From Endomicrobiales bacterium (lineage in GTDB: Bacteria > Elusimicrobiota > Endomicrobiia > Endomicrobiales > JAFGGC01): DNA of 64,000 nucleotides. Numbering within the stretch: position 1 is the stretch's first letter; every line of letters starts with the position of its first letter. This document shows positions 9,410 to 10,925 of this stretch, in pieces. A program made the translations under genes and the position numbers. The notes under the pieces are model-generated. The model was not told the DNA's origin and ran no database searches. It worked only from the letters and a program-made list of their open reading frames with translations. The stretch is from NCBI GenBank assembly GCA_016930715.1, contig JAFGGC010000026.1:1-64000 (forward strand), in the 5' to 3' direction.

Positions 9410-10309
9410 TCAGCCGGATATCAGGTTGTAGCCCTCTATAACGCTTTCCGAGACCATCTGCACCATGTTCGCGAGCTCGCCGGAGTCGCCCTTCGCAAGG
9501 GCGGCATAGTACTTGTAGCGGTCCTCTATCTTTATGACAGCCGGCGCGAAGTTCCTGGACAGGAGCTGGGCTATGAGGACCAGCCGGCCCACCCTGCCGT
9601 TGCCGTCAAAGAACGGGTGCACCGCTTCGAACTCGTAATGGCAACGGGCGGCGTTCTCGATGACGTCCCCGCCGGTTGTTGAAATATTCTTGATGAGCCT
9701 GCCCATCCTCAAAGGCACTTCCTGGGCCGTCGGGAGCCGCTTTTCGGTGTTCGTGAGGTTGACGTACCCAGTGCGGTATTTACCCGGAAGCTTGTTGTTG
9801 AAACCCCTCATTACCTTTTCGTGGAGGCCCAGGATGAAGTCCTCGGTTATCCTGAAATTCGGTTTCAGGGTGTCTATCAGGTATTCAAGGGCGTTCCTGT
9901 GGTTCACCGCCTCCAGGACCTCAAGGAACTCCTTGCCCCGGACGTTCTTGCCCTCAAAGGCCGCTTTTGTTTCCTGTTTGGTCATCCTGCTTCCTTCGAT
10001 CGCGTTGGAATTATAGGTCATTTCAAGAAGGAATTTTTCCCGCGCCGCGCCGTTTTTCTTCATCACGGAAAGGGGGTCGGGAAGGCCCGCCGCCAGCCTG
10101 TAGATTATGTCACGTATGTCAACGTATTCCTTGAAGAGCTGGTCTATCTCGGCGGACTGCTTCGGCTGGGGCTTGATGCCAAGGTCTAGCCAGCGGTATA
10201 CCGTTTTGTACCCCACCTGCAGCCTGCGGGCGAGCTCAGAGCGGGTAACGCCGGTATTCCGGATTATCTTCTGGAGTTTTTCGGTGTCGGTGAAAGTAAC
10301 TTTTTTCAT
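9410..10309 (-). CDS. Fic domain protein with N-terminal HTH
   Basis: Fic proteins usually transfer AMP from ATP to target-protein hydroxyls. 299 aa from the ATG at 10309. An N-terminal helix-turn-helix (TRSELARRLQVGYKTVYRW) is followed by an inhibitory helix motif SNAIEG (form S/TxxxEG/N, residues about 101-106) and the catalytic HPFFDGNGRVGR near residue 231, complete for activity. The inhibitory motif lies N-terminal to the Fic core, as in class II. The ATG at 10309 has TGAGGG 8 nt upstream; the in-frame ATG at 10330 has none. The promoter upstream carries three copies of a 10-bp site, which suggests autoregulation through the HTH. No antitoxin gene is adjacent. Confidence 0.9.
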   Translation of the reverse strand: MKKVTFTDTEKLQKIIRNTGVTRSELARRLQVGYKTVYRWLDLGIKPQPKQSAEIDQLFKEYVDIRDIIYRLAAGLPDPLSVMKKNGAAREKFLLEMTYNSNAIEGSRMTKQETKAAFEGKNVRGKEFLEVLEAVNHRNALEYLIDTLKPNFRITEDFILGLHEKVMRGFNNKLPGKYRTGYVNLTNTEKRLPTAQEVPLRMGRLIKNISTTGGDVIENAARCHYEFEAVHPFFDGNGRVGRLVLIAQLLSRNFAPAVIKIEDRYKYYAALAKGDSGELANMVQMVSESVIEGYNLISG

Positions 10310-10328: not shown

Positions 10329-10414
10329 ATAGGACATAATTAAACATATAACTATATAAATAATATACCATATGTCCTATTATATGTCAAGTAGTATGAT
10401 AAAATATGTCCTAT
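10329..10414 (-). promoter_or_regulatory. Three TATGTCCTAT operator sites around the fic promoter
   Basis: An exact 10-mer TATGTCCTAT occurs at 10371-10380 and 10405-10414 and, inverted, at 10329-10338. One copy is upstream of the -35 box, one exactly fills part of the -35/-10 spacer and one lies in the leader. A fourth partial copy (TATGTC) overlaps the -35. The geometry fits repression by the HTH domain of the Fic protein. Confidence 0.7.
10362..10390 (-). promoter_or_regulatory. Promoter of the fic gene
   Basis: Minus strand: perfect TTGACA (10390-10385), 17-nt spacer, TATATT (10367-10362). The predicted start is near 10355, giving a leader of about 45 nt to the ATG at 10309. Confidence 0.75.
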
Positions 10415-10490: not shown

Positions 10491-10925
10491 TCAGATATGG
10501 CTTATTTCTTCGATCAGTTCAACTACCTTCTTTCTGATCGTATCCCTGATATCCCTTGATTTTTCAAGCTGTTCCTCGCGCGTGCCGCGGAGGGCGGCGG
10601 GATCGGGTATGTCCCAGTGGAAGGTCTTTATGACACCCGGAAACATCGGGCATTTCTGGGCGGCGGCCTGGTCGCAGACGGTCACCAGATAGCTGTACCT
10701 CCTGCCTTGCTGGAAAAGGTCCCAGACCGATTTGGTTTTGTTGCCGGAAATGTCTATTCCGGAGTCTTTCATTACTTCCACGGCGTAAGGGTTGAGGGCA
10801 CCGGGTTCGATGCCGGCGCTTTCGGCCTCCATTTTCCCCTTCGAGATGAGGTTGAAAAAGGCCTCGGCCATCTGGGACCTCGCGCTGTTGTGCAGACATA
10901 CGAACAGTACTTTAACTTTGTTCAT
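10491..10925 (-). CDS. arsC: Arsenate reductase (LMW-phosphatase-like, thioredoxin-coupled)
   Basis: Reduces arsenate to arsenite. 144 aa. The P-loop CLHNSAR (C10 to R16) is the CX5R nucleophile loop of the low-molecular-weight phosphatase fold, and C84 and C92 (VTVCDQAAAQKCP) match the two extra cysteines of thioredoxin-type ArsC, so it is a redox reductase and not a tyrosine phosphatase. It is the last gene of the pst operon, 93 nt after phoU. Arsenate enters cells through phosphate transporters, so co-expression makes sense. No ars efflux pump or ArsR is present nearby. Strong Shine-Dalgarno GGGAGG, which adjoins a GC-rich hairpin. Confidence 0.93.
   Translation of the reverse strand: MNKVKVLFVCLHNSARSQMAEAFFNLISKGKMEAESAGIEPGALNPYAVEVMKDSGIDISGNKTKSVWDLFQQGRRYSYLVTVCDQAAAQKCPMFPGVIKTFHWDIPDPAALRGTREEQLEKSRDIRDTIRKKVVELIEEISHI

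Follow-up and report, generated by a model that had tools for sequence, protein, structure and literature searches.

Operator conservation and covariation point to self-repression of a class II Fic gene by the N-terminal helix-turn-helix of its own product

A 64,000-nucleotide stretch of an Endomicrobiales bacterium genome (GenBank assembly GCA_016930715.1, contig JAFGGC010000026.1, positions 1 to 64,000, referred to as the window) was analysed in order to evaluate control of a fic gene on its minus strand. The results point to a single-gene self-repressing module, in which the Fic protein would bind a putative operator (O1) and further dyads through its own N-terminal helix-turn-helix (HTH) and block its own promoter. 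We put the probability of this reading at roughly 0.87. The operators, their spacing, conservation, uniqueness and covariation with the protein were all read from sequence. Self-control via the Fic HTH had been proposed in a preliminary description of the region, and the proposal is strongly supported by conservation of the operator, its restriction to fic, the lack of a conserved neighbour and covariation with residue 35 of the protein. The system thus appears to be real, and the sequence evidence on the identity of the probable binder is unusually direct.

As described previously, the 10-mer TATGTCCTAT occurs exactly three times within 86 nt, at 10329-10338 (minus strand), 10371-10380 (plus strand) and 10405-10414 (plus strand). 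Allowing for up to one mismatch, nine matches were observed in the window as compared to 1.8 expected, a number that was equalled in none of 100 shuffles. Alignment on their centres identified the three copies as half-sites of an 18-bp dyad with consensus halves ATAGGACAT and ATGTCCTAT. The three operators of the preliminary description are accordingly real as copies, each 10-mer being one half of a longer dyad. The dyad centres (Table 1) are spaced by exactly 34 bp. The TTGACA-17-TATATT promoter that had been pointed out (10390..10362, minus strand) proved to be the best consensus match nearby (11/12), with an extended -10. O1 has one perfect half, while its other half is shared with the -10 element. 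The gene start had been placed at 10330; an ATG at 10309 (MKKVTF...) is more likely, as it is preceded by GAGGG and an equivalent start codon is found in many orthologs. The 10329 site therefore falls in the leader.

Full-length orthologs with 33-65% identity were found in the same order (twice in genome G001 and in G007). A more distant one came from G066 of the same phylum, and others were detected in Omnitrophota and the Saganbacteria phylum. They were present in 34 of 384 Omnitrophota metagenome-assembled genomes sampled phylum-wide (36 of 384 in an overlapping class draw) and in 7 of 74 Saganbacteria phylum genomes. A dyad over the extended -10 was observed upstream of nearly all orthologs. 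At loci L105 and L116 the calling rule chose a strong dyad elsewhere, and at L009 the gene lies at a contig edge and the upstream region is missing; a second site pair in L009 (3234/3279) falls within a gene and was dismissed as chance. In most orthologs a second dyad follows 33-36 bp downstream of O1, and the commonest distance between dyads is 35 bp, with 22 pairs at this value and 33 pairs at 33-36 bp. In 49 of 52 loci a CATATG core was found no more than 136 bp upstream; its frequency was 1.7% in random windows taken from these loci and 10% in dinucleotide shuffles, and none of 27 other Fic genes had it. Repeats arising by chance in this AT-rich intergenic region could be suspected, since the bare 10-mer is no rarity in the genome as a whole (8 copies, and 21 of a backward control pattern); that explanation is refuted by the conservation in orthologs and by the rates in shuffles and random windows, and its probability is practically negligible.

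A genome search for other sites, which had been suggested as a way to find target genes, returned eight exact copies of TATGTCCTAT in the whole genome (2.3 Mb), three of them at fic. Given the count for the backward control, the other five copies are at chance level, and no target genes emerged. The longer operator TAGGACATATGGTATA occurs only once in the window's genome, and the exact operator is confined to fic in all five genomes holding it (G000, G001, G007, G342 and G343), G001 having two exact operator copies and two fic copies. A wider regulon was sought with the exact 10-mer and with the 16-bp operator (up to 3 mismatches) in the window's own and related genomes, and non-fic matches were at chance level only. 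No conserved neighbour or separate antitoxin gene was found among open reading frames (ORFs) of at least 50 aa, as no neighbour protein family was common to more than five loci. The gene therefore appears to be an orphan with its own operators. The earlier statement that no antitoxin is present holds only for a separate gene, as an inhibitory motif, SNAIEG, is built into the Fic chain itself.

The question of which protein reads the operator was approached through covariation. O1 was called by the core and -10 only, ignoring the left triplet, and every variable protein position was then screened, across about 50 relatives, for its ability to predict that triplet. The best predictor (z 9.5, the next being 5.7) was residue 35, located at the start of the predicted recognition helix; it also came first under an earlier, noisier automatic operator calling that this rule replaced. 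The runner-up positions, 21 and 24, are also inside the HTH. Lys35 was paired with GGA (GGACAT) in 29 of 33 cases. Of the 7 proteins with Arg35, 4 had TGA (TGACAT) and 2 had GGA, while all 11 proteins with a neutral residue (M, V, N, Q or L) had TAA, TTA, TCA or TAT, mostly as T(A/T)ACAT. G at the second triplet position thus seems to track positive charge at residue 35, which is chemically sensible. Among pairs of 65-75% Fic-domain identity, 143 of the 176 that agree in residue 35 had the triplet in common, as compared to 19 of the 129 that differ there; at 75% identity or above the numbers were 16 of 19 and 0 of 4. Although these pairs are not mutually independent, relatedness alone is insufficient to explain the covariation, because pairs of matched divergence differ by residue 35. 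Because the operator bases track a residue of the recognition helix, it is very probable that the Fic protein binds the operator with its own HTH and that the gene is autorepressed. In two close relatives, L095 and L133, Lys35 is accompanied by Trp38 (YKT[IL]WRW) and the site is different (TGGCAT / ATGCCATATATG); specificity may therefore depend on residue 38 as a second position.

An unrelated regulator encoded elsewhere in each genome might instead bind the operator, with the Fic HTH serving another role. Fic binding is predicted and the HTH of the window protein falls under the curated Pfam cut-offs, which would leave room for such a regulator. We nevertheless consider it very unlikely, as the operator bases follow the Fic protein's own recognition-helix residue, the operator is found only at fic, and the pair of fic and operator is kept in distant phyla with no common neighbour. 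Several results do weigh against self-repression by the Fic HTH. Both O0 and O2 of the window are half-dyads only. A strict test for independent pairs on the Fic-domain tree gave 4 supported pairs, of which about 3 agree and 0 oppose, and is alone not significant. Four of the 33 Lys35 proteins deviate from the rule (L089, L095, L121 and L133), the second dyad of L089 having GGACAT, and L119 and L131 fit it loosely.

According to the proposed mechanism, the N-terminal HTH, probably as a dimer, would bind the 18-bp dyad over the promoter spacer and -10 at O1, with Lys35 reading the GG of each half-site. Further dyads one 33-36 bp step away would be bound as well, namely O2 in the leader and, in the window's genome, also O0 upstream. 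The occupied operator would block RNA polymerase and hold down the amount of Fic enzyme, and the built-in inhibitory helix would also restrain the enzyme. Direct binding and the dimeric state are what we infer from the sites and the protein; repression rather than activation is suggested because O1 overlaps the spacer and -10. An activating Fic protein, or one switching between activation and repression, would be consistent with the location of O0 upstream of the -35, where activators can sit; an O0-like half-site is also found in L010, L044, L045 and L094. Many orthologs however have no clear O0, whereas O1, over the spacer and -10, is the sole site kept nearly everywhere. The -35 and extended -10 are moreover near consensus in most orthologs, so little activation would be needed. 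Activation is accordingly given only a slim chance.

Self-repression by the Fic protein may be separable from its catalysis. Two Omnitrophota homologs, L122:814-1677 (genome G709) and L123:687-1550 (G567), share the HTH motif and carry operators of this kind (ATAGGACATTTGTTATAAT and TTAGGACAGATGTCCTAT), while their catalytic motif reads LRPFCGANGRAAR and their inhibitory motif SGALSG, the inhibitory Glu being lost. The ratio of nonsynonymous to synonymous divergence between them is approximately 0.15 (0.035/0.233), and an apparently dead Fic enzyme therefore seems to be maintained under purifying selection. These homologs argue that the repressor role can outlast the catalytic one. No other Fic domain was found in G709; two further ones, of a different type, are present in G567.

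Fusions of Fic and HTH domains, and a possible regulation of fic by them, were pointed out by Kinch et al. 2009 (PMC2686095). An experimental precedent is CccR of Yersinia pseudotuberculosis, a class II Fic protein with a C-terminal HTH that represses its own gene via a palindrome near the -35 (PMC9755527). Self-control, called the simplest reading and an uncommon one in the preliminary description, remains the simplest, while uncommon has to be qualified on account of CccR. Both proteins carry class II Fic and HTH on one chain, and control by CccR involves no described separate antitoxin. CccR however has a 26-bp spacer between its boxes and a role as a type VI secretion system effector, whereas the window protein has its HTH at the N-terminus and a compact dyad that overlies the -10 and recurs in steps of 33-36 bp. 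The domain order is different, and the window protein resembles CccR in its probable working but is not a CccR ortholog. In CbFic2 of Coxiella burnetii, DNA binding stimulates (de)AMPylation and dimerisation (PMC10628234). CbFic2 and SoFic are Fic proteins with an HTH as well, but theirs is a C-terminal winged HTH combined with an N-terminal DUF4172; no specific operator has been shown for CbFic2 and no DNA binding for SoFic. In toxin-antitoxin operons of the Phd-Doc and FicTA type the module represses its promoter, as proposed here, but there a separate antitoxin is the repressor or a part of it, whereas enzyme, inhibitor motif and putative repressor form one chain in the window. With the inhibitory motif on the Fic chain and no conserved neighbour, the gene differs from two-gene modules of class I (FicTA / VbhTA). 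Metazoan FICD/HYPE and bacterial class II Fic proteins (4u04, 4x2e, 3cuc), which are the nearest structures, share the N-terminal inhibitory helix; all of them lack the N-terminal HTH, and FICD has tetratricopeptide repeats and a membrane anchor. No paper on a comparable Fic family with an N-terminal HTH was found in the open-access literature.

For the majority of bacterial class II Fic proteins, neither regulation nor a target is known. Self-repression of a Fic protein, so far demonstrated for the C-terminal HTH of CccR, is here indicated for an N-terminal HTH in uncultured phyla. As DNA specificity appears to be largely legible from one recognition-helix residue, self-repression can be tested directly by means of swap mutants, for which operator variants occurring in nature provide ready-made protein-site pairs. 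If the residue-35 code is true, K35M would move preference from GGACATATGTCC towards TAACATATGTTA and K35R towards TGACATATGTCA. A more far-reaching and rather doubtful proposal is that a one-protein circuit coupling operator binding, self-inhibition and AMPylation evolved independently of CccR in a widespread group of orphan Fic enzymes of candidate phyla. The DNA-bound dimer would be the silent form, release from DNA would raise expression and free the catalytic site, and some lineages would have dropped catalysis to become pure repressors.

Table 1. Location of the fic gene, its promoter and its putative operators in the window.
Feature	Position	Strand	Basis or remark
fic gene, 299 aa, N-terminal HTH and class II Fic domain	9410..10309	-	Pfam Fic E 2.8e-19, weak HTH matches, ortholog starts
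HPFFDGNGRVGR, Fic catalytic motif, residues 231-242	9584..9619	-	sequence; kept in all intact orthologs
SNAIEG, class II inhibitory motif, residues 101-106	9992..10009	-	sequence; kept in nearly all orthologs
HTH domain, codons 8-62, four predicted helices	10124..10288	-	AF2 secondary structure
Recognition helix (predicted), codons 34-42	10184-10210	-	AF2 secondary structure
Lys35, start of predicted recognition helix	10205-10207	-	top predictor of operator bases
Putative operator O2, one strong half-site (ATAGGACAT, plus strand), centre 10337.5	10329..10346		in leader
-10 hexamer TATATT, extended, preceded by TGG	10362..10367	-	consensus match; extended -10 kept in orthologs
Putative operator O1, dyad with halves ATAGGACAT and ATGGTATAT (minus strand), centre 10371.5	10363..10380		over promoter spacer and -10
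-35 hexamer TTGACA	10385..10390	-	consensus match
Putative operator O0, one strong half-site, centre 10405.5	10397..10414		upstream of -35; sequence

The Fic domain of the window protein was matched by Pfam PF02661. The N-terminal HTH of the preliminary description is borne out by the AlphaFold2 (AF2) model (mean predicted local distance difference test score 92.8), in which its four helices span residues 8-19, 23-29, 34-42 and 49-62, and by weak Pfam matches; the match exceeds the cut-off in the homolog L122. The catalytic motif agrees with the class II pattern HPFx[D/E]GNGRxxR, and SNAIEG, located in a predicted helix (residues 87-104) and the turn following it, agrees with [S/T]xxxE[G/N], a motif that precedes the Fic motif within one chain. 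AMPylation activity and a target are predicted for the protein. The Fic core was also matched by PADLOC models (candidate defence group PDC-S04 and SoFic), and a defence role is possible.

Carriers of the family were sought on mobile elements as well. No Fic relative was found in viral contigs, and the two exact operator matches there (L081 and L082) are at unrelated genes, consistent with chance. The one at L081:3338-3354, ATAGGACATATGGTATA, lies in a short gap between terminase-like and portal-like phage genes with TTGACA close by; it is promoter-like but probably due to chance. Among the listed plasmid records, similarity was to the Fic core only, at 40% identity or less. A half-site, ATAGGACATA, in the window's genome (G000:C37:190946-190955; L047:947-956) is located 4 nt upstream of the ATG of an ORF that by eye is AbiEii-type nucleotidyltransferase-like and toxin-like, the site again probably being chance.

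The window's genome has two more Fic-domain genes (G000:C3:13994-14245 and G000:C10:13416-13676), both outside the N-terminal-HTH family. Upstream of fic on the same strand, at 10491-10925 of the window, is a low-molecular-weight phosphatase / arsenate-reductase-like gene (Pfam LMWPc), which adjoins what judging by sequence appears to be a phosphate-transport cluster (phoU, pstBAC, pstS).
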